64,000 nucleotides of DNA. It comes from Porphyra umbilicalis (Eukaryota; Rhodophyta; Bangiophyceae; Bangiales; Bangiaceae). A program made the position numbers and the translations under genes. Numbering within the stretch: position 1 is the stretch's first letter; each line of letters begins with the position of its first letter. The notes beneath the pieces are model-generated. The model was not told where the DNA came from and searched no databases. It saw only the letters and a program-made list of their open reading frames with translations. The DNA is taken from contig KV918822.1 of the NCBI GenBank assembly GCA_002049455.2, positions 236,332 to 300,331 of the forward strand, in the 5' to 3' direction. Positions 6,643 to 43,815 of the stretch are shown here, piece by piece.

Positions 6643-6716
6643 TAACGATAGTGGGATTCGAACCCACGACGTACGGACTACGATTCCGCCGCTCTGACCA
6701 ACTGAACAATATCGTC
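6643..6716 (-). tRNA. tRNA-Thr(CGU): tRNA-Thr, anticodon CGU
   Basis: The minus strand folds into a complete 74-nt cloverleaf. The acceptor stem GACGATA pairs with TATCGTT (one G-U), with discriminator A. The D arm is GTTC/GAGC with an AGTTGGTCA loop. The anticodon stem GCGGA/TCCGT closes a 7-nt loop ATCGTAG with anticodon CGU, which reads ACG (Thr). The variable loop has 5 nt. The T arm GTGGG/CCCAC carries the TTCGAAT loop, so the internal B box is intact. There is no intron and CCA is not encoded. A third position of C matches the GC-rich codon use expected here. Confidence 0.93.
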
Positions 6717-24050: not shown

Positions 24051-27026
24051 TCGCCGCACGAGGAACCCAAGCTCTGGCGGCCGCTGATCTCGAGACGACT
24101 GCAGACAGAAATTGTGGCGGCAGTCTCACATCTGCGCTGGCCGCGCCCCCAGACAAGATGCACGCATCCACAGACTGTGCACCAGACTCGCCGCTGAACA
24201 CGCGCTGTCTGGCGATGCAGATACAGTCACTATCCGCTTATATGGCACCCTTGCGCACTTTGTAGCCCCCGTGCCAGCAATGCATTCTCACGGCGCACCA
24301 CGGCGAGGCGTTCTCGTTTCACTTCCGATCGCTGCCATTTTGACCGAGAAAGGGGCTGCTGGGGCTCATGATCACAGAATTTAAGGACCAATTCAGTTGG
24401 TCGATCGCATGAGGGGGCGTACAATTACGGATTTGCTATGACTTCGAGTTCCACACGCGCGTCCTCCAGCGACACGATCCGACACCAACTCTGAGCATCC
24501 TCGAGCTGGCAACCACCAGACTTCAAACGGGACTGGAGTATGATCAGTTTCTTTTCTGAGAAAAAGAATAGGAAGGATACGACGAGGGGTTTATGAAGAT
24601 CATTCATCGTTGCTGTCCGACAGGTCCTCACTCGCTTCCTTTTCGGGCCCATTACGACCCCCGCCGTCCGAGCCGTCAGGCCCCTGGCCGTCCAAGTCGG
24701 CACTGTCCCCGCAGTCCACTCATTTACATCCTCCATCGTCCAACACGCCACTCCTTCTGCCGTCCGAGTCGTCGCTCTCCCGGCTGGACGAGGCGTCACT
24801 CCCGTCGCCTTCAGTGGCATGGCCTCCCTTGCCCTCGTCCAACCCAGTCTGGCCCTACGTGGCTGGACAACCGCTGTGGGGAAGAAGACGGTGGAGTCGA
24901 TGACGGTGGCGTCGGCGACGGTGGGGCCCAGGACGATTGTCAGCGTCATCGGTGGAAGGACGGATGACGGTATGTTCACATCGATGGGTGCAGTGTGCGA
25001 CAAATCCGTCACGTTTTTCCAATTCCCCCTGTCTGGGCTGCATTCCAGAGGACGATCGCGAGATTTGTCGATGGTTCCCGTGGAAGTTGTCGATCGCGAT
25101 CCTCCCAGTTATATAGCACGTGACATATAACTGGAGCGCATATAACCGGATATTGACTGTACGTTGTCACAGGCCCTGGCGGCGAAACTTTGCGACAGTT
25201 CCCATGCCGCCGCATCGTATTGGTCCGGCAAATCGGGGCCTGCCTGGGGCATGCGTGGGCCTGCGGCGGCCGCAGCTTGTGATAATCTGCATTGGACGTA
25301 GGATCCGGCTCATCGTAGCGATGTCCCAGGTATCCTCTTTTAGGGGCGGAAGCGCTGTTCCGGTTCCGGAAACGGCGCTTTCTTGGAATGGGTGTATTCC
25401 TCACGTTGTGCCGAGTGAAGCGTGGTGGGTTTGCACTGTGTCCAGGATCCGGAAGGCTACGAAAAACCAGATCAAGACAGAAAAAGGGCGTTTTCTGCAG
25501 TGTAGACGGGGGTGCTTACAGCTCGCTAGGCGAGAATCCTGGGATTTCTCGTGCACGGGCATGCCCGCACTGCGTGGGCGTTGCCCAAATAGAGGGGCTG
25601 CTGCAAACGCTCTGTCAAAGGGTGGGTACTTCAACGCCTGGGATCCAGGATCGGGTACACTTCAAATATACCCGTTGAGACGAGAAATAGCGTACCTTTT
25701 TTTGCTTCGTGCTCCGGGTAGAGTAGATTGCTCCCCTCCCAATACTCCAAGCATCCGAGAAGATACCCGAAAAAACTACGCGCGTATGCGCTCTTGAAAA
25801 GTACGCTTGAAGACCCCTGGTCTCAACCCATATCCCGCCCGGAGCATGTCCCGATCGTGCAAGGGGCTGTAGAAGGTCGATCGAATAGTGACCATGATCG
25901 TGCAATCAAGGCTTTTGTAAGCCAAGACGTGGCGATCATATGGATACTGTTATGTGTGACTTTCGCAGGGTAGGCACACTGTGTGTTGGAATGAAGATCC
26001 GGGTCTTTGTTAAAATCTATTATTTCATTATAAATAAGGAGCTATATTTGGGATTCGACTCACGGCTGCTCAACGGATTATCCGCAGGAAAGTTCCGTGA
26101 TCGATGTGGGATCATCTCAGATCATATCATTTTTGGTATGATAGGATAATCCGGCGGCGTGGTACTGGACTTATCCCACACTAGTGCACGGATTAATGTG
26201 AGATCAGGTGACGGATGAACCTGGGATCCATCCAGGAACTGTTTCCAAGACTGTCTGTCAGATAGTTCTGCGGCGCATCCAGCAGCACTGACCCTGGACT
26301 GTTCTACCGATTGAATGCTGACAAAGCCATGCGCTCACAAACTGGATTGGACGGAGATCATTTGAATGTCCATGCCGTAGGATTGAGTCGCCACAGCAGC
26401 GGGCGCCCGTTCTCCATTCTTTTCTTTATTTAGAGACACAGGCGGACTCGTGGAAAGAGAGCAAACTCAGACGGACAACAGTTTCCGGAACAGCACTGGA
26501 GCAGGGCCGCAAAATTGACGAAGAGACCATCCTGACGTCAACTGCTGCAACAAAGCAGAACATAATTTTTTGGCATGCTTGAGGAGCTGCCAACCAGACT
26601 ATCTGTGGGCTGCTTCATGGACCCGCCTGAGGTCTCTCCATCGTGCTGTTTGGGGGCCTCCCTTCATGATCGACTGTGTGACTATCCTCAGTGCAGAACA
26701 TGCAAAAGTTGGCAGGATTTTCTGCGACACTATTTCAGAGATTCATCGCGCGCATGTTCCCTCACTGCCGTGCAAGACTGGTTGTTATAGATTAATTTAC
26801 GGATAAAAACAGAAAAAATAGCAAAGAAAACAAACAAAAAGAGCAGCCACTCTGAGGAGGTGATAAATGCACCCGCTTCCACGGGCAGAAAGAAACGTCG
26901 TTCGGCCGGGGCCAGAGGGCAGCCAAGGGCATGAAGTAAGCCATGACTGTCCAACGTCAGCTTCTCAACGCTTTAGCCGTCGAGTCTTCGTAAAGCGTCA
27001 CCTTGACCGTCAATTGAGCGTGTTCT
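24051..27026. other. Intergenic DNA without a supportable gene
   Basis: A frame at 24425-25012 (minus) encodes a loosely repetitive Thr/Arg/Ala text that follows a degenerate, roughly 33-bp DNA periodicity. A plus frame at 25120-25797 has no domain-like features. The 25551-25571 palindrome GTGCACGGGCATGCCCGCAC is noted above. From 25900 to 26900 the DNA is AT-richer, with small inverted words such as CGGATTATCCG (26079) and a nearby GGATAATCCGG (26144). No gene is called. Confidence 0.35.
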
Positions 27027-27935
27027 CTAGTCAGCTTCCTCATCAGAGAGATCAATATCACCGGCCTCCAGATCCTTCAGCTCGTCCCGCATGCAGCGAA
27101 CAACGCTCTTGCGAGCCTCAGCGCTCTCAGGTCGCAAGAATTTGGGAAAATCCATAGCATCCACGTACCTCTGCAAGCAGGCCGCTCCACCGGCCCGAAC
27201 AGAGGTCCACACTTCAGTAGCGTCCAAAAGAAGCAGCTCAGCAAAGATGGACGTCGCAGCCCCATTAAGATCAAGCGCGCGCTCCATCTCCCGGGCGCCG
27301 TCCTTGAGCTTCAAGCGGTAACTGACGCTTCCCGGGGTGGCCAGCGCGGCCAGTTCCGCTGCTTCAGACGCATTGTGCACACCAGTGGTGATAACGACAC
27401 GCTCCATTGAGGCCTCCTTGACATCATTGTCCATGTACACTCCCAGTGTACGATACGCAAGCAGTCTAGCAGAGGTGCGCCTGCGGTTGCAGCGAGTACG
27501 CAGTCCCTTTCTCAACGCTGCCTTCACTACGCGCCGCTTGCTCGTCCAGCCACTCGCAACATAGTCAATGTTCCCCGCGCATTTCTCAACGGCTTTCTTC
27601 ACGACGCATCGAAGAGGGCGAGTACAGTCTCTGTTCGGGCCTTCCAACTGTCCGGGCGGGGTCAACCATGAGAGGCAATCGTGTTCGGGCGAGTCGACCG
27701 CGCTCCCATTGATACCAGGGCTCACGGATCCGTTGCAAATCTTCTTGAGCATGGCTTGAGCGTAGCGAGAAAAGTAACCAACCACCTCATCCTGAAGCAG
27801 CAGCAGCTCCAACGGCACAATCAACCCAAACACGATATACACAAAAAGCAACCAGTATCGTGTCAGACAACGGTTCTTGTCGGCACGTTTGTGACAGCAG
27901 CGTCGTACGTGTAGTCTACCAAGCCACGCTCGCAC
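27027..27935 (-). CDS. Putative single-pass membrane protein, unknown function
   Basis: A 302-codon frame ends at a TAG (27027-27029). It opens with a Cys/Lys/Arg-rich stretch and then one strong hydrophobic segment (about residues 25-48, TRYWLLFVYIVFGLIVPLEL), as in a signal anchor. The downstream part has NGS and NAS sequons, paired cysteines and a basic middle, and ends in an acidic tail, DIDLSDEEAD. There is no ATG at the head of the frame; the first in-frame codon used is GTG. A 3' splice site, AACTTGATACAG, sits just upstream (intron end at 27940), so an upstream exon is likely. I could not fit a donor in the right phase. No family is recognised. Confidence 0.45.
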   Translation of the reverse strand: MRAWLGRLHVRRCCHKRADKNRCLTRYWLLFVYIVFGLIVPLELLLLQDEVVGYFSRYAQAMLKKICNGSVSPGINGSAVDSPEHDCLSWLTPPGQLEGPNRDCTRPLRCVVKKAVEKCAGNIDYVASGWTSKRRVVKAALRKGLRTRCNRRRTSARLLAYRTLGVYMDNDVKEASMERVVITTGVHNASEAAELAALATPGSVSYRLKLKDGAREMERALDLNGAATSIFAELLLLDATEVWTSVRAGGAACLQRYVDAMDFPKFLRPESAEARKSVVRCMRDELKDLEAGDIDLSDEEAD

Positions 27936-27959
27936 GATCCTGTATCAAGTTAACACGTA

Positions 27960-29157
27960 GGTAAGGGCCTGGAAGCAAAGTATCATACCCCGTGGGAGCT
28001 CCATACGCTCAAGAAGAGGGCAGCATCGACGGCAGGAGAACAGGGCCCGGGAGACCCGACGGGTGCGCCGTCGTTGTCTTCAACGTCACTGTTGGGCATT
28101 ATCGCGTCCTGATGGGCCTTGGGCAGCAACACAAGGCACAGTGATCACTGGCAACCGTCGTCGGGGCCAATGTCAACCAGGGCAGTCTGCTATCGATGTG
28201 AGTCGAGGTCGGATTGCAAGCACGCCTTGCACAATGTCTCCTCATCGTGTCGGCGACCGTTGACCTCCCGAGCCATGATCACAACGCGAGGGCGTAAGCC
28301 AATCATGCAAGCGGATAAAGACCAGTTTTAAATGACAGGCTGTGATGCTGACGAAAGCACAGCTCCACAGTACTTTCCATTACCCGCACTGTCTCGCAGA
28401 TCATTACAGATAGTGCCGCACACGGGCGGCGATCCCGGACAGCTTCGTGGTCAGGAAGACTCACCGATGAGTGGGGACGGAGAGCATGTCTCCGGGACCA
28501 TCTCAGATTGCTTGGCCGATCTCACTTTACGAGGCCATTGATGATCGACTTCTAAGTACATGTGTTCTCTACAATTTTGCAATTGATCGGAGATATATCG
28601 ATTATCCGGCTCGCTCGGTTTCGGCCGACGAGTGATCTCCTTCGAGCTAGTCGCGCCTTCCCCGTCGGATTCAGCGTCTGTGGCCACCCGTTCAGATCGC
28701 TCCACACGGGGACTCCACGGCAGGGCGTCGTGCGGGGACGCCTGGGGCGGTCACCGTTTGTGAGCACGTCAGGGTGGTGGCAGACGCTCTGAACACAGGC
28801 ACCGCACCTCCCCACCGTAGCGGGACGCACCTGCACCCACGTTCGACGCACCGCGCGACGCCCTTTCCGCACCGCGGTGACCGTACTCGCCCCGTCTTGC
28901 TCGCGGACCTCCACGTGCGACCACGCGCATGACGGACGCAGATCGCACTTCACACTCCCATCTGTTGCCTGCTTTTCTTTCATACTGATCACCCGACACC
29001 AACCCTCTTTACCCTACTCTGCCCTGTTTGCTTTCTTGTCTGTTGGGGCTCAGGTCGCGGTTGAGTCTCGGTTCCATGATACACCCGTAAGGGACCGCCC
29101 GACTGTCGCAGTGCGTGACTTTGTGTCTCGCGCTCGCGGACACACGCCCGTGCTTAT
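27960..29157. other. Intergenic DNA upstream of the 138-bp array
   Basis: Short frames only. If the JmjC gene, the array and the transposase form one mobile unit, its left terminus should fall in or near this stretch. I looked for a CACTA start and for an inverted match to 42500-43800 and found none that I would defend. Confidence 0.3.
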
Positions 29158-32100
29158 TCTTCCCGTGTCCGCCCCATCGGTGCGGCGGACACGGATGTGG
29201 CTTCTCGTCGTCCTCGCCCTCGATCTGGGCGAGTGACGGCCACGTCCGCCGGGTACACGCGTTTTCACCAACCCGGCAGACCGTTGCCTTTGCGCTCAAC
29301 TCGGGCCCGCCCCACCGGCGCGGCGGTCCCGAGTAGTGAGTCTGGTCGTCCCCGCCCTCTGTCAGGGCGAGGGACGGCTGGATCGGCTGGGGACACGCGT
29401 TTTCGCATCCTCCGCTGACGCTAGTTGCCACCCTCCACTCGGGCCCGCCCTACCGGCGCGGCGGTCCCGAGAAGTGAGTCTGGTCGTCCTCGCCCTCTGT
29501 CAGGGCGAGGGACGGCCACGTCCGCCGGGTACACGCGTTTTCGCCAACCCGGCAGACCGTTGCCTTTGCGCTCAACTCGGGCCCGCCCCACCTGCGCGGC
29601 GGTCCCAAGAAGTGAGTCTGGTCGTCCCCGCCCTCTGTCAGGGCGAGGGACGGCTGGATCGGCTGGGGACACGCGTTTTCGCATCCCCCGCTGACGCTAG
29701 TTGCCACCCTCCACTCGGGCCCGCCCCACCGGCGCGGCGGTCCCGAGAAGTGAGTTTGGTCGTCCTCGCCCTCTGTCAGGGCGAGGGACGGCTGGATCGG
29801 CTGGGGACACGCGTTTTCGCATCCCCCGCTGACGCTAGTTGCCACCCTCCACTCGGGCCCGCCCCACCGGCGCGGCGGTCCCGAGAAGTGAGTTTGGTCG
29901 TCCTCGCCCTCTGTCAGGGCGAGGGACGGCCACGTCCGCCGGGTACACGCGTCTTCGCCAACCCGGCAGACCGTTGCCTTTGCGCTCAACTCGGGCCCGC
30001 CCCACCGGCGCGGCGGTCCCGAGTAGTGAGTCTGGTCGTCCCCGCCCTCTGTCAGGGCGAGGGACGGCTGGATCGGCTGGGGACACGCGTTTTTGCATCC
30101 CCGGCTGACGCCAGTTGCTACCCTCCACTCGGGCCCGCCCCACCGGCGCGGCGGTCCCGAGAAGTGAGTTTGGTCGTCCTCGCCCTCTGTCAGGGCGAGG
30201 GACGGCCACGTCCGCCGGGTACACGCGTTTTTGCCAACCCGGCAGACCGTTGCCTTTGCGCTCAACTCGGGCCCGCCCCACCGGCGCGGCGGTCCCGAGT
30301 AGTGAGTCTGGTCGTCCCCGCCCTCTGTCAGGGCGAGGGACGGCTGGATCGGCTGGGGACACGCGTTTTCGCATCCCCGGCTGACGTTAGTTTCCACCCT
30401 CCACTCGGGCCCGCCCCACCGGCGCGGCGGTCCCGAGAAGTGAGTCTGGTCGTCCTCGCCCTCTGTCAGGGCGAGGGACGGCCACGTCCGCCGGGTACAC
30501 GCGTTTTCGCCAACCCGGCAGACCGTTCCCTTTGCGCTCAACTCGGGCCCGCACCACCGGCGCGGCGGTCCCGAGTAGTGAGTCTGGTCGTCCCCGCCCT
30601 CTGTCAGGGCGAGGGACGGCTGGATCGGCTGGGGACACGCGTTTTTGCATCCCCGGCTGACGCTAGTTACCACCCTCCACTCGGGCCCGCCCCACCGGCG
30701 CGGCGGTCCCGAGAAGTGAGTCTGGTCGTCCCCGCCCTCTGTCAGGGCGAGGGACGGCTGGATCGGCTGGGGACACGCGTTTTCGCATTCCCCGCTGACG
30801 CTAGTTGCCACCCTTCACTCGGGCCCGCCCCACCGGCGCGGCGGTCCCGAGAATTGAGTTTGGTCGTCCTCGCCCTCTGTCAGGGCGAGGGACGGCCACG
30901 TCCGCCGGGTACACGCGTTTTCGCCAACCCGGCAGACCGTTGCCTTTGCGCTCAACTCGGGCCCGCCCCACCGGCGCGGCGGTCCCGAGTAGTGAGTCTG
31001 GTCGTCCCCGCCCTCTGTCAGGGCGAGGGACGGCTGGATCGGCTGGGGACACGCGTTTTCGCATCCCCGGCTGACGCTAGTTGCCACCCTCCACTCGGGC
31101 CCGCCCCACCGGCGCGGCGGTCCCGAGAAGTAAGTCTGGTCGTCCCCGCCCTCTGTCAGGGCGAGGGACGGCTGGATCGGCTGGGGACACGCGTTTTCGC
31201 ATTCCCCGCTGACGCTAGTTGCCACCCTCCACTCGGGCCCGCCCCACCGGCGCGGCGGTCCCGAGAAGTGAGTTTGGTCGTCCTCGCCCTCTGTCAGGGC
31301 GAGGGACGGCCACGTCCGCCGGGTACACGCGTTTTCGCCAACCCGGCAGACCGTAGCCTTTGCGCTCAACTCGGGCCCGCCCCACGGGCTCGGCGGTCCC
31401 GAGTAGTGAGTCTGGTCGTCCCCGCCCTCTGTCAGGGCGAGGGACGGCTGGATCGGCTGGGGACACGCGTTTTCGCATCCCCCGCTGACGCCAGTCGCTA
31501 CCCTCCACTCGGGCCCGCCCCACCGGCGCGGCGGTCCCGAGAAGTGAGTCTGGTCGTCCCCGCCCTCTGTCAGGGCGAGGGACGGCTGGATCGGCTGGGG
31601 ACACGCGTTTTCGCATTCCCCGCTGACGCTAGTTGCCACCCTCCACTCGGGCCCGCCCCACCGGCGCGGCGGTCCCGAGAAGTGAGTTTGGTCGTCCTCG
31701 CCCTCTGTCAGGGCGAGGGACGGCCACGTCCGCAGGGTACACGCGTTTTCGCCAACCCGGCAGACCGTTGCCTTTGCGCTCAATATGGGCCCACCCCACC
31801 GGCGCGGCGGTCCCGAGTAGTGAGTCTGGTCGTCCCCGCCCTCTGTCAGGGCGAGGGACGGCTGGATCGGCTGGGGACACGCGTTTTCGCATCCCCCGCT
31901 AACGCTAGTTGCCACCCTCCACTCGGGCCCGCCCCACCGGCGCGGCGGTCCCGAGAAGTGAGTCTGGTCGTCCTCGCCCTCTGTCAGGGCGAGGGACGGC
32001 CACGTCCGCCGGGTACACGCGTTTGCGCCAACCCGGCAGACCGTTGCCTTTGCGCTCAACTCGGGCCCGCCCCACGGGCTCGGCGGTCCCGAGTAGTGAG

Positions 32101-32390
32101 TCTGGTCGTCCCCGCCCTCTGTCAGGGCGAGGGACGGCTGGATCGGCTGGGGACACGCGTTTTCGCATCCCCCGCTGACGCCAGTAGCTACCCTCCACTC
32201 GGGCCCGCCCCACCGGCGCGGCGATCCCGAGAAGTGAGTCTGGTCGTCCTCGCCCTCTGTCAGGGCGAGGGACGGCTGGATCGGCTGGGGACACGCGTTT
32301 TCGCATCCCTGGCTGACGCTAGTCGCTACCCTCCACGCGGGCCCGCCCCAGCAACGCGGCGGTCTCGAGAGGCGAGTCCGGTGGTCCTCG
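29158..32390 (+). repeat. 138-bp minisatellite, about 23 units in two subtypes
   Basis: The hairpin motif CGCCCTCTGTCAGGGCG recurs exactly every 138 bp from 29353 to 32251 (22 copies), with a degraded unit before (29215). Two subtypes differ in the middle: one has CACGTCCGCCGGGTACACG (8 units), the other CTGGATCGGCTGGGGACACG (14 units), in a loosely alternating order. Each unit has a second dyad, CTCGGGCCCGCC...GGCGGTCCCGAG. Since 138 is divisible by three and stop-free, a 1,090-codon plus frame and long minus frames read through. I regard these as by-products. The array ends about 250 bp before the ATG of the JmjC gene, so it may act as an upstream or subterminal region. Confidence 0.9.
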
Positions 32391-32637
32391 TTCTGAATTG
32401 TTGCTGGCCACGTCCGAATTTGTTACACTCGAGCCTTGCCCTTGGTCCGTTGTGTCAGTTCTCTCGTGAGATCGGCAGCGCCCTGACCGGGGGGGGGCTC
32501 CCCAAGAGGCTGGTTTTGCATCCTCACCCCAGTGTGTGGCGGGAGCCCTGTGAAATTCTTTTAAAGGTCGCCACTGCCACCCGTGGCTGTGTGACCCAGA
32601 GCCTGTGAGGTGTTCGCTGTCCCCGGTGGCTTCCACG

Positions 32638-35600
32638 ATGCACGGCGCCGACAATGCGTGGACAGTCGGTGGCAGTGGTCAAGCAGACCGTGGCGGTCGC
32701 GCTCAGGACTGTCCAGATCCGAGCGACAGCCGGCTGCGCAGCAATCGGCGCCGTGCTACTCGGTCCAGGCGTGGCGCTCTGACCCCGGCGCAAGCCCTCC
32801 AGGCCGAGGCCGCGGTGGCCGCCCGTCATGCGGCGCAGATGCTGGCGGCAGCTCGGGCCGCGCAGCGCGCCGAGGAGCTTGCGCGGAGAGCTGCGCCCGG
32901 CCAGGGACCGATTTCTCGGCCGGTCGCCGTGCAGTCGCTCGCCAGTTGCGGTGCCAAGCAACGTGGCCATGCCAACAATGACGATGGGCCTTACCGGCCC
33001 TTGGGCGATGCGGCCGATTGCGGATCTGCGCTCGACAACACTCCTGGTACCGCGTCGCGCGCGCGCTCCGAGCTCGAGATCCCGGCCAGCGCAGGCGGAC
33101 TCGGGCGAAGCCGCCACTGCGTGGCTCACGACGGGCCAGGCCATCAACCAAGTGTTGTGCCGCCTGGAGCGGCAATCGCAATGCTGGATGGCGACGACGG
33201 CCCTCGAGATGCGCGTCGAAAAGGGCCGGGGTCGGATCGAGCCTCAATGCACGGTGCTCAGGGCGCTGATCCGCGCTCCCTCGGACCCGAGGGAGCGGCC
33301 CCCAGCTTGGAATCGCTGGTGGCGATCTTCACCGACGCTCGGCGGTCGCTGGTTGGTCAAACTGGGGGATTCTCGCTGGCCCAAGGTCGAATGGTTTTAA
33401 CGGTGCTGGGCATTGCTGGGCCGAGATTCCTTCCGAGCCCACGTCAATTGCGCGCAATGCGCAATTGCCCGGGGGGATGTGGCGATGCGAAGGCTTTTGA
33501 TTCGCTGCTGGTGTCCACTGTAAGGATATTGCAAGGCGGTAACGGCTCGATGGTCAGCCCGGTTGACACGGCCGCGCGCCTCGTCCAAGGTGCACTGGAG
33601 GCACACGCGTGCAGCGGCGCTTGCCAACCCTCACCACGCTCCGCTCCCCCGACGGCCGCAGTAGTGCGCTACCCTGCTCCACCTCCTGCCGAGCTCTCCT
33701 CTGCAGGCCATCGGTCGCCTGTGGCGCGCTCCCCCTCCCCTCCGCACAAGCGCTTCCGGGAGTGTGCTTCCGAGGAGGAAGACCGCCGTGAGATGCGTTG
33801 GGTGCCTGCAGCTGCAGGACGTGCGCGACCCGAACCCCCTTCTGTGGCGCGCTCACGGAAGGTGAGCACACGGCTGCTGCCCCCACCTCGCCCCATCGGC
33901 CCTCGGCTTCTGTTCCCACGTGGGGCCACTCGTCATGTCGAGCTCTTTTCCGGTGATATGTCGTCGCTCGCCGATGGATCCCCCCTGTCGCCTCGCATCT
34001 TTGACGGTATGTTGCTGTGGTTGCTGCATCGGCATGGGAGTGAGGGTCGATTCGGTGGTCTGCGAGTGCTGACGTCATCAGACGCTGCAGATGTTTCCGC
34101 AGCTGGGGGTGGTGACCGGGCTCTGATGGACCGGGCTTGTCACGTAGTGCGCAAGAGGTTGGTGTTCAGCGCGGGAACAGTCTTGATACCTGTGCGTTCT
34201 GGCCGGCTTTGGTGGGGCATTGTCGTGCGGTCCCTGGAGCACATGGTCCAGGTGGTTGTTGAGGCGGAGAGACACGGTAGGGCGCTCGTGGGGGCGGCAG
34301 ACCGCGACTCGGCACTTGTCGTGGTCAACACGTCTTCGGTGGGAATGGGTACAGGTGGCTGGGACGAGCGGGTGGTGGACCAGCTGTTCATCGTGCTGGC
34401 AACAACGATCTGCCGGACGATTCTGCAGACTTCCAACTCGCCTGGGACGCTCACGAGGGTGGTGGAGACCCTGCGGCGGCTGGCGCCGGTAGATGTCATC
34501 CAGACCACCGGAGGCAACCACAACGACTCGGCCGAGAGACTACTCTCGTTCTTCACGCTTCTTCAGTCCGCCACGCCCGGCGCTGCCCGTGCCCTGTTGC
34601 GCAACCATCGTGGGCGTGGCTGTGGCAAGGCGCACGCACCTCGACGCCTTCGCGGCCTCGTGCGACGCGTCGTGGAAGCCCATCGCCCGGGCAATGACTC
34701 TTTCGATGAGGACGAGCCAGCTGAGGAGCTCATGAATGGACGGGAGCTATCTGAGGACGAGTCGGCGAGCACCCACACCATGGAGTACCACGACAGCGAG
34801 GATGGGGGGGCGGGTGGGCGAGACGGCTTTGGTGGGAGTGGCAGAGGCGGCTTTGGTCGGAGGGGCGGAGGGAGCGGGAGCCGCTCTCAGGGCAGCGCAC
34901 GAGGCAGCCGTAGCGGCGGCAGTGACATGCGCAGACAAGAGGGCAGCAGTCGAAGCAGCTCCGGTGACGAGCGACGCCGTGCCGGGGGTGAGCACGACAG
35001 TGCCGACGGTGCCCACGGTGCAGACTGCCTGCACGGCGCCGTCGCGACTGGGCACCACCGCGGCGAAGACGGAGATGTTAATGACGTTGCAAGCGGACGC
35101 GCCCGGGATGGACATGTTCCGGTTAGACTCGATAGCGCCGCCGCAGACGAGCGCCAAGGTCGTCACGGCGCCGGCGCCCACGACGAAGAAAGCGCCCTGC
35201 GGCATGATCGCGGTGGACGCCACGGCGGTGACCGCAGTCATCACCAAGGTCGTGGTGACGGCCGTGAGGGTGGGCGAAGAGATGGAGATCGCCTCGGTGC
35301 TCGTGGTGGTGCTGTTGTTAGAGCATTTGTTGGTGCTACACGGGGTCGCGCTCCTGATGACAATGCTGCAGTTACACGCGATGGCGCCGCCGCCGGTGAG
35401 CACCAAGGTGGCGACGGCGGCGACGCCCACGATGACAATTGCGCTGCGGGGGAGCATCGCGGTCGGCGTCGCGGTGGGGACGATGGTCATCATGACGGTC
35501 GTGACTCGGGCGCTGACGAAGAGCGCCGAGGCGGGAAGCGTTTGCGTGCTGGTGGTGGTGGTGCAGCTGATGCTGCCGCTGCACCTGAACGTCGTCGCGC

Positions 35601-38600
35601 CCGTGGAGGCGATGCTTCTATGATTGGCTATGGTGCTGCCGCGGACGAGCGCACAGGTGGTGACGGCGGCGGCGACATCGATGACGACGGCGCCGGGGGA
35701 TGTGGTCGTGATGAGCGCCTCGGTGGCGCTTGCGGTCGTCAAGACCGGCATGCCGGCGGCGCTGAGGGTGGGGGACAAGGTAGAGAGCGCCTCGGTGCCG
35801 GTCGCCAAGACGGGCGTGCTGGCCGTGTTGAGGGTGGAGACCAAGGTGGAGGGCGCCTCGGCGGTCGTGCTGGTGCTGGTGGGGCTGCTGGTGGAGCTGT
35901 TCGTGATGGTCGCCATGATGACCATGTTGGAAATACACCCACTGGTGCCGCCGCCGATATCCGCCGAGGTGGCGACGGCGGCGGCGACAACGACGACGAT
36001 GGCGCCGGGGAAGATGATGGTCGTGATGAGCGCCGCGGTGGCGCCCGCGGTCGTCAAGACCTGCATGCCGGCGGCGCTGAGGGCGGGGGCCAAGGTAGAG
36101 GGCGCCTCGGTACCGGTCGCCAAGACGGGCGTGCTGGCGGTGCTGAGGGTGGAGACCAAGGTGGAGGGCGCCTCGGTGGTCGTGTTGGTGCTGGTGGGGC
36201 TGCTGGTGGAGCTGTTCGTGATGGTCGCCATGATGACCATGTTGAAAATACACCCACTGGTGCCGCCGCCGATATCCGCCGAGGTGGCGACGGCGGCAGC
36301 GACAACGACGACGACGGCGCCGGGGGAGGTGGTCGTGATGAGCGCCGCGGTGGCGCCCGCAGTCGTCAAGACCGGCATGCCGGCGGCGCTGAGGGCGTGC
36401 GCCAAGGTAGAGGGCGCCTCGGTACCGGTCGCCAAGACGGGCTTGCTGGCGGTGCTGAGGGTAGAGACCAAGGTGGAGGGCGCCTCGGTGGTCGTTCTGG
36501 TGCTGGTGGGGCTGCTGGTGGAGCTGTTCGTGATGGTCGCCATGATGACCATGTTGGCAATACACCCACTGGTGCCGCCGCCGATATCCGCCGAGGTGGT
36601 GACGGCGGCGGCGACATCGATGACAACGGTGCCGGGGGAGGTGGTCGTGATGAGCGTCGCGGTGGCGCCCGCGGTCGTCAAGACCGGCGTGCTGGCGGCG
36701 CTGAGGGTGGGGGCCAAGGCAGAGGGCGCCTCGGTGCTCGTGCTGGTGCTGGTGGGGCTGCTGGTGGGGAAGTTCGCGTTGGCGCCCGTGGTGATCCTGC
36801 TCGAGTAACAAGCGGTGCTGGCTCCGCGTGTGAGCGCCTTCAGCACGCCGCTGAGTGGGAAGGGCGGGATCTCGGCGTGGCCTTTGAGATGGTGTTTTCT
36901 GGTGTCGGGGAGCGACATGCCGAGGGTGTCGGTGGGGGTTTCTCCGCCCGACTTGATGTCTGTTCTGGAAAAGTCGACGGCAGCATAGCCTCGCGTGGCA
37001 GCAGTGTTTGGAACACCTCGGACTCTGCTGATCTGAGGATTCTCGCTGGCATTCCTCCCTCATCGCCTCCATCAGCCCCTCCTGCTTCACCGCCGTCACG
37101 GGACCGCACAGCGGCTGACTCTCAACACGACGCCCGCCTCCACTCGGGCCACATTGATGCGAGAAAAGCTGGCCATCCGGACCTCGGGGCCGCCTGTGTC
37201 AGTACCTCTTGTGGCGAGACCCACCAAACGTCGCGCAGCCGACATGTGGTGGTTAATGAGCCGGCGCTCGGTGCCGAGGATGATGGAAGGGCTCATGCGG
37301 GGTGTGAGGGCGTCGATCTCGTGGACGATCCCAGGCATCCGCCAAGGGCGCGATATGATACACCCGGCAAGGGGCCAACCCCTTTACAGCGACAAAATTT
37401 GGATTTTCACACGATTCCAATATCATGTGTAAGTTCTGTTCCCGAAATGGGCTTGCTCGGAGTAATTCGATCGCATGCCGCGTCAATCAGGACATATGGT
37501 GCGCACGTGTTCCGAATCAAAGATCCCAAGATTCGACCCGCGTCATGTGTCGCGCCGAAGCGGAAGGTGGGGGTGCCGGTCAGAGTACGGGTTCAAACCT
37601 TTCCTCAGTACCCTACAATTGTGAGCGATGTCTTTTCCCGTAGCCCTGATCCCGACCCCACTGTGAAGCGGGGCGAGCTGCGGGCTCAGCTATCACCCGA
37701 GCGGGAGAAGTGGCTCTTGGCTGACGATCTCAAGAAGAAGATCAGGGACAGTAAAGCCGCCCTTCTAGAACAGTACCATGAGTTTGGTGTGCCGCAGTTC
37801 CTCGCCTGTGTCAATGATCCAACCGTGACGTGGGTGAGAGGAAGGACATCTGGTGGCCACGAGACGAAGGTAATGGGTCCTGGAAAGCCCAAACCAGTCG
37901 ATGTGTACTACGTCTCGGACCTAACGCCGTCAAATGAAGATGGGTGTGGTAGGAGTCTGGGCGACCCCGCCTGCACTGCGAAAGCTGTTCCATTCCCCCC
38001 ATCAGAACGCTTCGAGAGCCCCCGAACTCTGAACCATCACAGCATGCTTGGTAACGCCGCCACATACGAAGGTATCAACACAAATCTTCTGTACATGGGC
38101 ACTACCGGATCCCACTTCAGTTGGCACGTTGAGGACCACCTGCTACAGTCCGTCTCGTACTTGCAGTCCGGGGCTAGCAAAATGTGGTTCTTCATTGCCA
38201 AGAGCGAAGTTCCTCGTATGTTACGCGTCTTGGTTGAGCACATGGATCCAGTCGTTCTCGCAGCCGCAGGAGGGGACGTCTGGCAGGTCCTGGGGCTCAA
38301 GGCTAGTTTATGGCCTGCCTCTTTCTTCCTCGCGCATGGTGTCCGTGTGGGTTTCCACAAAATGGTGCCTGGGGACTTTGTCGTGACAGGCTACGGGGTT
38401 CCTCACAGCGGGTTCAACGCGGGGGTTAATGTGGCCTCGGCCGTGAGCCTCGCGTGCACAGGCTGGCTCGTGCATGCGCATGAGCACGCCATGCACTGGC
38501 GCGGAAAGCTTGGGATGCTCATTCCTGTTGAAAAGCTGCTGGTGCTCAGTGCCTTGAAGCTGGCTGATGGGAAATGGTGGTTTGACGACGCCATTGCCTA

Positions 38601-39156
38601 TGAGGCCCTGGAGCCGACAGAATTCCAGCGGGACCTTGGTGACATGGTGTCCTACCTGTCCCAGTACCTCGACTCCGTCCTCTCGTACATGAATACGGAA
38701 GCGATTCCAGCTTGGAGTGGCAAGAAGCCGTCGGCGGTGGACTTTGACCAGGCTCCCCAGCCTGTGCGACGTTTTATCGTCGAAAATGCCATCAAACCAT
38801 CGGGAGAGCCCTTTGCGCTCCCTGAGGAGAAGGAGGGCGCGGGCACAGACTTCTCAGGGGATGGTGCTGCGTGCCCACACTGTGGGATTGTCACCTGGCC
38901 CTCTGTCGTTGTGTGCCCGACGTGCATTCAGCAGCTGGGAGCCGGAGCGGGACCGCGGGCCCCAATCTGCTGTTGGCGCTGCGCGCCGTCGAAGTACGAC
39001 GAGTCCCACTACCAAGCGGCACAGCATGACGGGGAACCTGGTCTTCTCGGGTGTCACGCTCCTCTGGTTGTACAGCGGCTTCCCAACGGCCGCACGTACT
39101 TACTGATCGAGAAGCTCAAGATGATGGGTGGCAACGGCAGCGGAGGAAGGGCATGA
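32638..39156 (+). CDS. Large JmjN/JmjC-domain protein with internal repeats
   Basis: One uninterrupted frame of 2,172 residues starts at ATG 32638. The N-terminal third is Ala/Arg/Pro-rich and then more globular, at about residues 437-650; that part loosely recalls a Ulp1-like fold. The middle (about 700-1400) is Gly/Asp/Arg repeats. A JmjN-like segment lies at about 1590-1635 (GLLGVIRSHAASIRTYGAHV). The JmjC domain follows. Iron ligands are His1830 and Glu1832 (SWHVEDH) and His1923 (VPHSGFNAG). The probable 2-oxoglutarate lysine is Lys1848 (GASKMWFF). The order and spacing fit KDM4/KDM5-type dioxygenases, which demethylate histone lysines in the nucleus. A Cys/His-rich cluster (CPHC...CPTC...CCWRC, about 2079-2150) resembles a zinc finger. 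The transposase gene lies tail to tail 190 bp downstream. The JmjC call is firm; the histone-demethylase role and mobile-element membership are inferences. Confidence 0.85.
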   Translation: MHGADNAWTVGGSGQADRGGRAQDCPDPSDSRLRSNRRRATRSRRGALTPAQALQAEAAVAARHAAQMLAAARAAQRAEELARRAAPGQGPISRPVAVQSLASCGAKQRGHANNDDGPYRPLGDAADCGSALDNTPGTASRARSELEIPASAGGLGRSRHCVAHDGPGHQPSVVPPGAAIAMLDGDDGPRDARRKGPGSDRASMHGAQGADPRSLGPEGAAPSLESLVAIFTDARRSLVGQTGGFSLAQGRMVLTVLGIAGPRFLPSPRQLRAMRNCPGGCGDAKAFDSLLVSTVRILQGGNGSMVSPVDTAARLVQGALEAHACSGACQPSPRSAPPTAAVVRYPAPPPAELSSAGHRSPVARSPSPPHKRFRECASEEEDRREMRWVPAAAGRARPEPPSVARSRKVSTRLLPPPRPIGPRLLFPRGATRHVELFSGDMSSLADGSPLSPRIFDGMLLWLLHRHGSEGRFGGLRVLTSSDAADVSAAGGGDRALMDRACHVVRKRLVFSAGTVLIPVRSGRLWWGIVVRSLEHMVQVVVEAERHGRALVGAADRDSALVVVNTSSVGMGTGGWDERVVDQLFIVLATTICRTILQTSNSPGTLTRVVETLRRLAPVDVIQTTGGNHNDSAERLLSFFTLLQSATPGAARALLRNHRGRGCGKAHAPRRLRGLVRRVVEAHRPGNDSFDEDEPAEELMNGRELSEDESASTHTMEYHDSEDGGAGGRDGFGGSGRGGFGRRGGGSGSRSQGSARGSRSGGSDMRRQEGSSRSSSGDERRRAGGEHDSADGAHGADCLHGAVATGHHRGEDGDVNDVASGRARDGHVPVRLDSAAADERQGRHGAGAHDEESALRHDRGGRHGGDRSHHQGRGDGREGGRRDGDRLGARGGAVVRAFVGATRGRAPDDNAAVTRDGAAAGEHQGGDGGDAHDDNCAAGEHRGRRRGGDDGHHDGRDSGADEERRGGKRLRAGGGGAADAAAAPERRRARGGDASMIGYGAAADERTGGDGGGDIDDDGAGGCGRDERLGGACGRQDRHAGGAEGGGQGRERLGAGRQDGRAGRVEGGDQGGGRLGGRAGAGGAAGGAVRDGRHDDHVGNTPTGAAADIRRGGDGGGDNDDDGAGEDDGRDERRGGARGRQDLHAGGAEGGGQGRGRLGTGRQDGRAGGAEGGDQGGGRLGGRVGAGGAAGGAVRDGRHDDHVENTPTGAAADIRRGGDGGSDNDDDGAGGGGRDERRGGARSRQDRHAGGAEGVRQGRGRLGTGRQDGLAGGAEGRDQGGGRLGGRSGAGGAAGGAVRDGRHDDHVGNTPTGAAADIRRGGDGGGDIDDNGAGGGGRDERRGGARGRQDRRAGGAEGGGQGRGRLGARAGAGGAAGGEVRVGARGDPARVTSGAGSACERLQHAAEWEGRDLGVAFEMVFSGVGERHAEGVGGGFSARLDVCSGKVDGSIASRGSSVWNTSDSADLRILAGIPPSSPPSAPPASPPSRDRTAADSQHDARLHSGHIDARKAGHPDLGAACVSTSCGETHQTSRSRHVVVNEPALGAEDDGRAHAGCEGVDLVDDPRHPPRARYDTPGKGPTPLQRQNLDFHTIPISCVSSVPEMGLLGVIRSHAASIRTYGAHVFRIKDPKIRPASCVAPKRKVGVPVRVRVQTFPQYPTIVSDVFSRSPDPDPTVKRGELRAQLSPEREKWLLADDLKKKIRDSKAALLEQYHEFGVPQFLACVNDPTVTWVRGRTSGGHETKVMGPGKPKPVDVYYVSDLTPSNEDGCGRSLGDPACTAKAVPFPPSERFESPRTLNHHSMLGNAATYEGINTNLLYMGTTGSHFSWHVEDHLLQSVSYLQSGASKMWFFIAKSEVPRMLRVLVEHMDPVVLAAAGGDVWQVLGLKASLWPASFFLAHGVRVGFHKMVPGDFVVTGYGVPHSGFNAGVNVASAVSLACTGWLVHAHEHAMHWRGKLGMLIPVEKLLVLSALKLADGKWWFDDAIAYEALEPTEFQRDLGDMVSYLSQYLDSVLSYMNTEAIPAWSGKKPSAVDFDQAPQPVRRFIVENAIKPSGEPFALPEEKEGAGTDFSGDGAACPHCGIVTWPSVVVCPTCIQQLGAGAGPRAPICCWRCAPSKYDESHYQAAQHDGEPGLLGCHAPLVVQRLPNGRTYLLIEKLKMMGGNGSGGRA
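35620..36790 (+). repeat. 312/315-bp in-frame repeat within the JmjC gene
   Basis: About three and a half copies of a 312- or 315-bp unit (104/105 codons). The phrase ACTGGTGCCGCCGCCGATAT falls at 35941, 36256 and 36568. All lengths are multiples of three, so the JmjC frame is kept and encodes Gly/Asp/Arg/Gln text (GGDGGGDNDDDGAG and RDERRGGARGRQDRHAGG). The other plus frame and a 723-codon minus frame are also open here. Less regular related units extend upstream to about 34900. Confidence 0.85.
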
Positions 39157-39349
39157 GTGAGCTGCGTATTTGCATGTGAGTACTTTATGCTATTCTGCTT
39201 CTTTTCAAGTGACGATGTGTAGTTTGGCCGTTTTTTGTTGGCTGTCGTGCCCGCGTTCAACTTGATGGCCACGACGTAAAATAGGCTCTCATTGTTTCAA
39301 AATCTACAGCAAAACAAGCCGGCTCACTACTCCAGCCGCATCCGCACGC

Positions 39350-42337
39350 TCAACCACTCTTAAAATTGAAGCCTGACCTCTTACTAAACATGAAGTCTTT
39401 GTTCCCGCACGGCAGTACGAACGCCATCCTCCTGACCCTTTCGGCTCGTACGAGAGTGACGCCGGCCGCAGCATCACGTCTGACTACTACAGGCTGCCCC
39501 AAGACGGAAGGCTCCGTCTCTGGCTCTCTCCAAGCAAGACAGGCAAGGTATACATCGCCATCGATTGTCCCGATCGTTTGAACCCGGACGAAGTGTACGG
39601 CTTCGCCGCCGACTGAAGAGGAGCCGGATAATCTCGTGGAAGTCTCCGCCCTGCTAGATATAGACACAGTGGAACCTTCTCGTATTGTGAGGGCCCGCTG
39701 CGGGTGGCGGGCCTTCCGGCAGAACTTGACCGCCGCGTTGGGTGCGTGGGATCGCCAGAACTCCTCTGTTGTGGACGAAACCGCGTGCAGCGCTGTCCTA
39801 GGGCACCACGTGTTCAATGTAGCAGCTGTGTAGCGCTTTTGAGGAGCAAGCTGGTGAAACACAACGGATTTCAATGGCTTTCCGTTTTTTCCGAGCAGCC
39901 ATGAAGGAGGAATGCTGTGGTTCGCAGGCATGGAAAGGGCCCTTGACAAGGTCTCTATTTCACGCCATCGCTGCATGGCGTACTCAGCAGAGTTTCTGTT
40001 GCTGCTCTGTTCCACTTCGCGCTTGGCTTGTTGGTGGAACTTCTCAAATATGAGCTCGCATATTGCAGACCCAAGCTGCGCTAGAGGAAGAGTACGATAG
40101 AGCAGCTCCAACACGCGATGAACAGATGGTCGCTCCCACTTGCCGTCAAAAGGTAGCAGTAGACGCAGCTGAATCATGAGACCCTCACCAAGCAGCTGAA
40201 GGTCAGCAACGGTTGGCCGCTCCCTCATGGCTGACTCTCCGTCAATTGAAATCGTTGGACGATAAAACAGGGCAGCAGCGAACTGTCGCAGGGCTTTGAG
40301 AGCACCGAGAGCAGCAACCGCATGCGGAGACGTCGTGTTTGTGTGTACTAGGTACTGCAGAACTGTGGGACTCACCGTGATCAGCACTGCGTAGTCCGAC
40401 ATTGACAACGTCGTTCCACCCATCTTTTCAGGCTCGAACGAAGAAAGGATAGTATGCGTGGGTACATGCTTTGCACTGCGACGCATTTCCTTCGTAAAAT
40501 TGTCTCGCTGCTGCACAGAGAGTGCATCGTACGCTTCCATTAAGAGATGCGACCCGAGGTTGTAGTAAAGAAGGTGTGAGGGAGCAACGATGATGTGTTC
40601 GTGTATATCAAAGCTGCCGGGACCCCGGGCTTCATGTAACCGCATCAACTGGCTTCCAACTCTGTCTGTCACGCCATTCAACAGGAGGGCTTCCCTCAAG
40701 GAGTCTGCTGACTGATCCACTGAACCTTTCACGGCTGACATGATCGCATGCGTGCGCTCCTGAACTCTGGAATATCTCGTGTCCTGGACGTCAAATGACT
40801 CGGTGCTGCTCACGGCGCGCTCCTTTCTGTGGCTTGTGGTCTTTGGATGGACAATGTCGCAGCTTGTGCAGTGCTCGGTGCCACTCGGTCCGATAGAGTT
40901 CGAGAACTTTGCAGCCATCGGGGAATCGAACACCGCAAGGGACAAGTACGCTCGAACCACGACTTCTTCTTGCTTGAAGGCGTCGTAGACAACCAAGCCA
41001 TTCTTACTCAGTTTTATGATGTCGTCGACGATGCGAGCAATCAATATTTCTGGGCAAGCTCCCGGTGGCAAATAGAAGAGAGGCCGAACGGAAAACGAAC
41101 GATCAGCAAGGGCCAGGGACGTGTACGCTCCGTAGTATCCCTCCAAGCTCCCACGTCTCCGCTTGTAGACACTGAACTCGTCACCGTATAGTGACACGAA
41201 GATAGTGTACGGGTCCTTTCCGGCGAGGTTATCGTCGGCGAGCGGAGGCTCTTCAGCTAGCTCAATGGGAATTAGAGCAGTCAGAGCCGTCCATGAGTCT
41301 TTCTCGCGCCCGGGTGCGCTCCAGACGATGATAACAAAAACTTCATCGGCTCTACTCATCCTCAGCGTGACTGTGCGCTGGCTTGAGACGCATGAATTCC
41401 AGGGCTCCGGAAGAAGGAGGCCTGGAAGGACCTCAAAACACGTGAGCAAGTCACCAACTCGAAGTGCGTGGGAATGGGCATACGTTGCCGGTGAGATCGT
41501 GACTTCTCCATCAGTAGCTATTGCGGTGCTCTTCAACTTGGCCTTAAACTTGGTCTTGCTATCCAAGAAGATCTCTGCGATGCATCCAAGGCCGTACCGG
41601 TATCGGTTGAACACGAAAGCATTCTTGAAGTTGTAGCGAGCGGGGTCTCTGGCAGCCACTGTTTGGAAGAACTCTGCGGGACGCTCAACTGTTCCAATGC
41701 GCGCGTCACCGTCACTGTGAAACAGAGATGCCGTCACAGGATCCCCAAAGTCCCTCTTGATGTGTTCAGAGAACGTAAGGTATGACACAGATACATCAGG
41801 TAGCTTTCTCAGGGCTTTTCCCTTTCCAGAAGGAAGCTGGCGCGTCGTTCTCTCTTTTCGCACCGGAGCAGCAGACTTCAGCATGTGATTGCGAAGCTGC
41901 TGTAGTCGCCACCGCGACGGCCACTTTTCCTCAGGGTCGAACGAGTTCTCGGCCTCTCGCATAATGTCATACTGTCTGAGAGTAACACGGGCGCGCCCGA
42001 AGAGGTAGGTGAAGCACACGAACTCACGACGAGACGCAAACTCCCCGGCTAAGACTTCCTCTTCACTGGAAAAGTCCGTATCTTCGGACGGAATCTCATC
42101 ATCATCAGACTCTGACGTCATGGAGGGGTCTTCTTCACCATGAACAGCATCCGCTGGGAGCGGACTGCTCCATGCAGAGTGCTGCATCTGCCCCGCACTG
42201 CTACTTCCAGGGTTTGCCTTATCAGCAGTGTTTGCAACTGGGGCGTTCGCGGCAAGTTGCGACTCCATGTGCCGGAGGTTCTCGTCTGCAAAGTTAAAGA
42301 AGGCAGATCCACGAGGACCTCGCCTGCGACGCTTCAT
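39350..42337 (-). CDS. CACTA/EnSpm-like (TNP2 or Plavaka type) transposase
   Basis: The frame from ATG 42337 gives 995 residues. I chose this start because it opens a basic KRRRRGPRG stretch; upstream codons in the frame lack an ATG closer to the conserved part. The central region has the layout of TNP2-type transposases. A first Asp lies in SLYGDEFSVYKRR (Asp386), then a Leu/Pro-rich beta region. FDSPMAAKFSNSIGPSG (Asp471) leads to the Cys pair HCTSCDIVH. Then comes a long helical block (HLLYYNLGSHLLMEAYDALS ... GALKALRQFAAALFYR) and a likely catalytic Glu in FEKFHQQAKREVE (Glu765). Such enzymes cut and paste DNA with 2-5-bp target duplications. The gene is intact with no internal stop. A TTTTATATG sequence lies 50-60 bp upstream. 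Terminal repeats of the element were not found. Confidence 0.8.
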   Translation of the reverse strand: MKRRRRGPRGSAFFNFADENLRHMESQLAANAPVANTADKANPGSSSAGQMQHSAWSSPLPADAVHGEEDPSMTSESDDDEIPSEDTDFSSEEEVLAGEFASRREFVCFTYLFGRARVTLRQYDIMREAENSFDPEEKWPSRWRLQQLRNHMLKSAAPVRKERTTRQLPSGKGKALRKLPDVSVSYLTFSEHIKRDFGDPVTASLFHSDGDARIGTVERPAEFFQTVAARDPARYNFKNAFVFNRYRYGLGCIAEIFLDSKTKFKAKLKSTAIATDGEVTISPATYAHSHALRVGDLLTCFEVLPGLLLPEPWNSCVSSQRTVTLRMSRADEVFVIIVWSAPGREKDSWTALTALIPIELAEEPPLADDNLAGKDPYTIFVSLYGDEFSVYKRRRGSLEGYYGAYTSLALADRSFSVRPLFYLPPGACPEILIARIVDDIIKLSKNGLVVYDAFKQEEVVVRAYLSLAVFDSPMAAKFSNSIGPSGTEHCTSCDIVHPKTTSHRKERAVSSTESFDVQDTRYSRVQERTHAIMSAVKGSVDQSADSLREALLLNGVTDRVGSQLMRLHEARGPGSFDIHEHIIVAPSHLLYYNLGSHLLMEAYDALSVQQRDNFTKEMRRSAKHVPTHTILSSFEPEKMGGTTLSMSDYAVLITVSPTVLQYLVHTNTTSPHAVAALGALKALRQFAAALFYRPTISIDGESAMRERPTVADLQLLGEGLMIQLRLLLPFDGKWERPSVHRVLELLYRTLPLAQLGSAICELIFEKFHQQAKREVEQSSNRNSAEYAMQRWREIETLSRALSMPANHSIPPSWLLGKNGKPLKSVVFHQLAPQKRYTAATLNTWCPRTALHAVSSTTEEFWRSHAPNAAVKFCRKARHPQRALTIREGSTVSISSRAETSTRLSGSSSVGGEAVHFVRVQTIGTIDGDVYLACLAWREPETEPSVLGQPVVVRRDAAAGVTLVRAERVRRMAFVLPCGNKDFMFSKRSGFNFKSG

Positions 42338-43815
42338 AGCGCTCGGTTTAACCACAGCCAATGCCTCTATCAAGCAGCGAAACTCACATACATATAAAAG
42401 CAAGTGACGGCCTGGCGCGGACAACACAGGGTCGTAGGGCAGGAGGTCCCACGCTAGAGGACTGCAGGGATGACACTGCCTCTTGCGAACACGACGAGTG
42501 CCCCGCACCCAGCACGGTCACGTTACACAACCGTTAGAGATGCGACAGCACGAACAGCAGCGCTCAAGGCGAATGGCGTGCCCGGGACGCGGGCTCCTCG
42601 CACCGCAAACCGCAACTGGACGATCCCAACGGAGTAGATCAGGCACAGGGTCGCTGCAGTCACCTGCAGGAGCACGGAGTAGTACGGCACAGCACAGTGG
42701 GTGGCGTCTGAGACTGGAGCGGTACATCACAAAGAGAGCTACGAGGAGCCCGAGCTCGTGAGATACATTCTCGGGTGGAGCAAAGACCTGAGATCGTTGT
42801 GAGGTGAAGCGCAGGCCCTTCTGCCAGTTGATCCAGGCGACAGTCTTTCACCCTGTCCTCCGATTGATCTCGCGGACTATCCGTCATCCAGTCTCCGTCC
42901 GATTCACAGCTCAATCCTCTCTACCATCCTCAGGAAAAGGACTGGTGGTCGTCGGGATCAGTTTGCAGGATGTCCTGGCGAAAAATCCCCGGTCGGTTCC
43001 TCTCTCAGTTATGGGATGACCCCAGGATCAACGGTGGGAGATGTTCACGTCATTTCCTCCTCTGATCCTGGGATCGTCACACGCTTTTCTCAAAAACGCG
43101 TCTGACCAACCCTCAGAATCGATCTCGCTGAGTGAGAAAAACTATCCTCGATCATATCCCTTGACAGTTCCTAATCCGTGGCGAGGATTAAATAAGGACG
43201 AGCACACAACTCGCTGTGCATGGATGGAGACTGACTGTATCCCCCTTGGGCGGGGCCACCTGTCGATCGGAAACGTGCCACGGGGCCACCTGTCGATCGG
43301 AAACGTGCCACGACTACAACAACCTGTGGTAGAGAAGGCCACCGGCAACGCGCGCATCTGCTCGACCTGCCTGACAAAATGCCCGAGCTTCTGTTGGAAA
43401 AAAAACATTGGGAAGGGGGGGGGGGGGGGATATGGGAGACAAACTCCAACCAGGGAATACCTGGTTCAAGACCCACTGTTCTGCTGGACACACCGTCCAA
43501 CAGGCGCCACGTGCGCTGCCTCGCCAGCAAGCATGATGCTGTCCTGATCTAGCCGACAGCCAATACTTTTAAAGATTCGGCCCACCCTTTGCGCCAATCA
43601 ACGTTTGCCATCCAGGGGTAAAACGCCACGTGTTCCGACAGCAGCATAGAAGCTTCGCTAATCCAGCTGCTGCCAGTGCGGATCACCTCAGCAGCGCCCA
43701 GCATCGTCGCCGTCGTCGACGCCGCCATTGAGGACAGGAGCTCCTCCGCCGCCGGCGCCGTGCGCGTACCCCCCCAGCGCGTTTTCCCGGTCGACGCCCC
43801 CACGCCGTCTTTGCC
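42338..43815. other. Flank between the transposase and SRP68
   Basis: No gene is seen. A 10-bp perfect stem, CCCAGGATCA/TGATCCTGGG, brackets about 43023-43072. A roughly 29-bp direct repeat (GGGGCCACCTGTCGATCGGA..., about 43252-43311) occurs twice. A 16-nt G run lies near 43416. A CCAAT box (GCCAATCA, about 43591) lies about 220 bp before the SRP68 ATG and may belong to its promoter. Confidence 0.4.

Follow-up and report, generated by a model that had tools for sequence, protein, structure and literature searches.

A gene for a JmjC dioxygenase lies tail to tail with a transposase gene in a 64,000-nucleotide stretch of DNA from the red alga Porphyra umbilicalis (the whole stretch analysed, here called the window). 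This raises the question of whether the dioxygenase belongs to a transposon and, if it does, what it might do there. The initial annotation had described a 2,172-residue, KDM4/5-like JmjN/JmjC protein ending 190 bp from a TNP2-like transposase on the other strand, and had left their membership in one element unproven, as terminal repeats had not been found. It proposed a search for other convergent copies of the pair, for shared ends with short duplications and for a transposon-specific JmjC clade. A single-copy JmjC gene lying outside the element ends would have spoken against the idea.

An EnSpm/CACTA-type element with a JmjC gene

Comparison of closely related copies revealed a 17,242-bp CAC…GTG element spanning 25977-43218 of the window, its edges reading CACTGTGTGTTGG... 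at the left and ...CTCGCTGTG at the right. Within it lie the JmjC gene, the TNP2-like transposase, a 138-bp tandem array and a 302-aa ORF (Table 1). Against seven other neighbourhoods, some of them copies without both ends, similarity to the window ran from about 25977 to 43218. Shared ends and a CA duplication thus enclose the two genes, which supplies the evidence of membership that had been missing. A plain inverted-repeat search for the terminal repeats was swamped by GC-rich simple repeats; the window is G+C-rich throughout.

The length of the 138-bp array varies strongly among element copies, from <1 kb to >7 kb (including the C174 neighbourhood, L022 and L023). A 1,090-aa ORF at 29336-32608 was rejected as a gene: most of it is array, and its Pfam hits were too weak to count. 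The 302-aa ORF is open in the C15 and C87 copies and has stops in the C2 and C95 copies; no Pfam match was obtained for it or for nine other large ORFs of the window. A tRNA gene lies at 6643-6716 of the window on the minus strand.

Table 1 Features of the element (window positions) and of an example copy of a second repeat family (locus positions)
Feature	Position	Strand
2-bp target-site duplication, left copy (CA)	25975..25976	.
Left terminus, CACTGTGTGTTGG...	25977..26000	+
ORF, 302 aa, no Pfam match, function unassigned	27027..27935	-
Tandem array of a 138-bp unit, about 22 copies, lying 5' of the JmjC gene; doubles as an open frame	29295..32387	.
Gene of the JmjC protein, 2,172 aa counted from the first ATG (ORF opens at GTG 32605)	32638..39156	+
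Tandem repeat within the gene, 312-bp unit, about 3.5 copies; coding stretch rich in Gly, Arg and Asp	35655..36735	+
C-terminal 552 aa, conserved between subfamilies	37498..39153	+
Pfam JmjC domain, residues 1829-1947 of the GTG frame	38089..38445	+
Cys-rich C-terminal motif (CPHC...CPTC...CWRC), common to the host C344 gene	38872..38982	+
TNP2-like transposase; conserved start ATG 42337, ORF up to GTG 42508	39350..42337	-
Right terminus, minus strand = CACAGCGAGTTGTGTGC...	43185..43218	-
2-bp target-site duplication, right copy (CA)	43219..43220	.
CXC-SET (E(z)-like) and VEFS frames, example copy (second copy, L051)	L050:265-3897 and L050:5554-6462	+ and -

The description of the JmjC protein as 2,172 residues long with intact iron and 2-oxoglutarate residues was borne out by its coordinates, by the Pfam JmjC match (E = 5.8e-15, 56 bits) and by the presence in the translation of H1830, E1832, K1848 and H1923 (ATG numbering), which make up the HxE...H pattern and lysine of JmjC enzymes. 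Both His are kept in all 17 transposon JmjC rows that were aligned, and the Glu and the Lys in 16 each. At +10 after the first iron His, Ser is found in 17/17 transposon rows and in the host gene C344, and Asn in KDM5C, JMJ13 and the other two host genes, so the substrate or activity may differ.

Outside this core the earlier labels fared less well. Four proteins were searched for JmjN without a Pfam match at E ≤5, with HMMER filters that drop most matches above about 0.1; a JmjN-like reading around GAHVFRI was made by eye only. PHD, Tudor, ARID and C5HC2 were absent from the Pfam results (E 0.01 for the whole protein, E 5 for the C-terminus), and the Cys-rich motif had no Pfam zinc-finger match over the cut-off, DZR appearing at E 1.2 only. 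The N-terminal 1,631 aa gave no matches in the loci of other subfamilies. The closest solved structures by sequence are Arabidopsis JMJ13 (4e-19 alone, 4.7e-40 by profile), KDM5, JMJ14 and KDM4. On this sequence evidence the KDM4/5-like label holds for the JmjC core only, which is related to KDM5, JMJ13 and KDM4, so the protein is not to be classed as KDM4 or KDM5.

The stop codons of the two convergent genes are about 193 bp apart, close to the earlier figure. Transposase_21 (TNP2, PF02992) matched the window transposase at 2.2e-5 and 24.2 bits, below the gathering score of 28.6 bits, and matched all three members scanned (two of them 99% alike) with a best value of 5e-6. In EnSpm/CACTA transposases the region from the second D to the last E holds a C(2)C and an H(3-4)H motif (PMC12730594). 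A CxxC at 547/550 is invariant in three rows and His 636, 638 and 645 are conserved, with no clear H(3-4)H by eye. Candidate DDE residues are D443, D528 and E818/E822, from an alignment read by eye only.

Shared ends and pairing across the genome

Both ends and their flanks were read in nine elements, comprising subfamilies A and B and a C69 derivative; C16 and C157 gave right ends only. The check for shared ends with 2-bp duplications around the gene pair gave a positive result in six of the nine: C62 (CA), C15 (TA), C2 (TG), C95 (TG), and the B-subfamily copies on C15 (TG) and C8 (GA). The chance of six matches in nine at 1/16 each is 4e-6 (binomial). The flanks of C87 match at three bases (TAT), not at two, and those of C27 and the C69 derivative (2/9) have no matching duplication. 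The JmjC gene and the transposase lie inside the shared ends in C62, C15, C87 and C2. The C2 copy has itself landed in a further JmjC/transposase element, within the right end of the latter, and gene pieces of that element adjoin it.

The EnSpm group is characterised by CAC...GTG ends (PMC12730594). Such termini were present in the elements read, and the 2-5 bp target-site duplication of EnSpm/CACTA elements was seen at 2 bp in 6/9, with one more at 3 bp only. The literal CACTA pentamer is absent: left ends read CACTG or CACCG, and right ends CACAG or CACGG. The element is an autonomous-looking EnSpm/CACTA-type DNA transposon with a TNP2-like transposase and a JmjC dioxygenase. It resembles known members in its CAC...GTG ends, short duplication and TNP2-like transposase, and differs from them in having CACTG rather than CACTA, an extra JmjC gene and, in the window copy, no subterminal repeats above shuffle level.

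A 24-base left-end pattern found 31 matches in the genome with ≤3 mismatches (reversed-pattern control, 0) and a 34-base right-end pattern found 11 at the same tolerance (control, 0). A same-strand JmjC lies ≤25 kb inside 15 of the 31 left ends, the chance expectation being about 1.2% per end; the other 16 have no JmjC within 25 kb. The transposase lies 709-842 bp inside seven of the 11 right ends, and four are without a scored transposase.

Two individual insertions were unusual. At C69:72390-79721 about 7.3 kb separate left and right family ends, with no JmjC or scored transposase within and no flank duplication; this is likely a non-autonomous derivative. Around the B-subfamily copy on C15 (L040, L046) the insertion flanks appeared by eye to be inverted copies of each other, making the target palindrome-like. 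A palindromic target was not noticed by eye in the other copies looked at.

The search for other convergent copies in the same 83.8-Mb genome showed a JmjC gene tail to tail beside 41 of the 44 scored transposase loci (44 scored among 305 candidates), the matched stretches of paired genes being 197-970 bp apart. At two of the three unpaired loci, C76 and C95:16906, the transposase is partial and has no JmjC nearby, and at C503 the JmjC is 5.8 kb off and not convergent. The pairing is not due to chance. Over the 41 pairs, JmjC identity and transposase identity to the window copy are correlated (Spearman 0.70, partly driven by a closely related subfamily; for two split transposase matches identity was averaged by hand).

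Pfam JmjC matches in the genome number 105. The C-terminus of the window protein was found at 79 places, many of its matches being partial or with stops (82 JmjC rows were merged to 79, and 46 transposase rows to 44). No scored transposase is near 38 of the 79, in a count for which only 44/305 transposase candidates were scored; at C2:186538, which belongs to the 38, transposase pieces are present. The JmjC gene is therefore multicopy and inside the element ends, not single-copy and outside them. No relatives of the JmjC or the transposase were confirmed in viral contigs. Of ten light-harvesting matches in the genome, two were compared with solved structures, and for both the best match was entry 7y5e (Porphyridium purpureum), consistent with a red-algal host.

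Age, constraint and origin of the JmjC gene

At paired loci of other subfamilies the JmjC is 57-70% identical in residues to that of the window. A deeper family is 32-34% identical in its JmjC (tblastn), with nine places at ≥74% to its own member. In all three copies of it that were read, a convergent transposase piece lies just downstream of the JmjC; that in C212 was found by tblastn (29%, 2e-11) and those in C164 and C173 by DNA similarity to the C212 stretch (97% and 82%).

Between representatives of the family-1 subfamilies read, dN/dS was 0.11-0.20 for the JmjC, and between family-1 subfamilies it was 0.085-0.146 for the transposase; one pair within the deeper family gave 0.28. These ratios are rough because synonymous sites are near saturation in the subfamily comparison (pS 0.63-0.74), where pN, at 0.16-0.26, is far below pS. 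Judged by them, the JmjC is shown to be under purifying selection between subfamilies. Ratios against the host gene C344 (0.20-0.52) were saturated and set aside, and L006 was excluded from alignment A2 for stop codons. In the young subfamily (A) the JmjC gave 0.45-0.84 where the ratio was defined, one B pair gave 1.86 and the transposase of young copies gave 0.95-2.06, all from few changes and as expected for drift after insertion.

In a 22-row tree a branch with support 100/100 separates the 17 transposon JmjC rows from all others, in keeping with the proposed transposon-specific clade. The host gene C263 groups with KDM5C. The nearest host gene found, C344 (L003:988-1926), joins nearest to the transposon branch, by a long branch that the program flagged as uncertain. 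It is single-copy (the next match by score is 32% identical) and has both the Cys-rich C-terminus of the transposon enzymes and Ser at +10, which makes it a candidate donor of the transposon JmjC or a candidate domesticated descendant.

Taken together, it is almost certain that this is one element in which the JmjC is maintained as a functional part. Partial or stop-bearing matches and the lack of clear constraint among young copies would suit a hitch-hiking host gene fragment with no function for the element. That explanation is contradicted by the dN/dS of 0.11-0.20 between subfamilies, by the keeping of the JmjC in two families about one-third identical and by its retention at 41/44 scored transposase loci, and is very improbable. 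Even harder to credit is a duplicated host gene cluster with a domesticated transposase: the large 17 kb unit with its variable tandem array might be read in that way, but the shared termini and 2-bp duplications contradict it, as do the differing flanks and the copy inserted into another's end.

Possible role of the JmjC protein

In the proposed mechanism the transposase would cut and paste the element, and the JmjC protein would act as a histone lysine demethylase that strips a repressive mark, most likely H3K27me3 and less likely H3K9me3, from the chromatin of the element. Loss of the mark would leave the ends of the element accessible and allow its genes to be transcribed. Targeting of the protein may depend on its long low-complexity N-terminus or on its Cys-rich C-terminus. 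Of the closest relatives, JMJ13 acts on H3K27me3, and KDM5 and JMJ14 act on H3K4. A search for C5 DNA methyltransferases (PF00145) gave no candidates in the genome, in an assembly that may be incomplete and where introns could hide exons; the search was positive in 10 of the 14 control genomes, each of the ten being prokaryotic. As no cytosine DNA methyltransferase was detected, a histone mark is favoured as the target, and a histone eraser would do the job ascribed to TET/JBP in fungal transposons. In the red alga C. merolae, H3K27me3 is reported on 50% of repetitive elements and is associated with low expression (PMC5405695). It seems probable, though with moderate confidence, that the element-encoded JmjC counters the silencing of its own element.

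Two other roles for an element-owned JmjC were considered. The protein might be a chromatin tether, or a hydroxylase of another protein such as the transposase, and might in this way direct insertion or control transposition, as the Ser for Asn at +10 in 17/17 transposon rows, the long repetitive N-terminus and the lack of a histone-reader domain in Pfam would allow. Since the His, Glu, His and Lys are retained across deep divergence and the closest solved relatives are histone demethylases, this is thought rather unlikely. The presence of KDM5 and JMJ14 among the closest structures would fit instead a KDM5-like enzyme that takes methyl groups off H3K4 and thereby damps the activity of the element or of genes nearby, a form of self-restraint rather than anti-silencing. 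KDM5C, however, clusters with host C263 in the tree, apart from the transposon clade, and we regard such a role as distinctly improbable.

An anti-silencing JmjC would have partial parallels. Fungal DNA transposons, including EnSpm and Plavaka elements, carry TET/JBP (Kojima 2025, PMC12730594). These too are DNA transposons, some CAC...GTG-ended, with a dioxygenase thought to undo silencing; their enzyme acts on DNA 5-methylcytosine in fungal hosts, whereas here it is of the histone-demethylase type, in a red alga with no cytosine methyltransferase detected. The words JmjC and Jumonji do not occur in the main text of that paper. It cites a SET histone methyltransferase on HarbingerS and MuDR elements of Phytophthora, which, as cited there, are likewise transposons owning a histone-modifying enzyme, but a writer rather than an eraser and in other superfamilies. 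The VANC proteins of Arabidopsis VANDAL elements are sequence-specific anti-silencing proteins (PMC10398659, PMC5735166) and so also element-encoded anti-silencing factors; they belong to another superfamily, and JmjC is unmentioned in the passages concerned. Endogenized giant viruses of Amoebidium have many KDM4-like JmjC genes, proposed to evade host chromatin silencing (PMC11244446). Like the present element they are selfish DNA with JmjC genes; unlike it, they are viral insertions with multi-exon JmjC genes, not transposase-encoding elements with defined ends.

No description of a JmjC-bearing transposon was found among the matches listed from the open-access literature. As far as these searches show, transposons with their own DNA demethylase or histone methyltransferase are already known and the histone-type eraser is new; if the proposal is true, this would be the first transposon lineage with a histone eraser of its own, retained across deep divergence. 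It would pose the testable question of whether histone-mark erasers are selected for in the transposons of hosts whose silencing does not use cytosine methylation. The family offers a ready study system: its copies run to dozens, their ends are defined, both intact and broken enzyme genes occur, and the host has a single-copy relative.

A second repeat of the genome has Polycomb-type domains. There are 76 CXC (E(z)-type) and 85 SET matches, with a SET 114-405 bp downstream of 71 of the 76 CXC; no CXC match lies within 15 kb of any of the 79 JmjC places. A Pre-SET search was uninformative, giving no matches in the genome or in the controls. No ends or transposase of this CXC-SET/VEFS repeat were identified in the stretches read, and it is possible that it represents a mobile family carrying Polycomb PRC2 subunits. 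Tentatively, histone methylation rather than DNA methylation might be the currency of a host-transposon arms race here, with the CACTA-type family owning a histone eraser (the JmjC) and an unlinked, ~70-copy repeat owning Polycomb writer subunits: a CXC-SET protein resembling E(z) and, as seen in the two copies read, a VEFS frame resembling Su(z)12. Both the addition and the removal of H3K27 methylation would then be in the hands of mobile elements. The two copies, on C71 and C261, are 99.4% identical over 7.5 kb and encode a 1,211-aa protein closest to EZH2 (7e-35). On the opposite strand, and convergent with it, is a VEFS-box (Su(z)12) frame, matched at 2.4e-9 in the C71 copy and open in that on C261.
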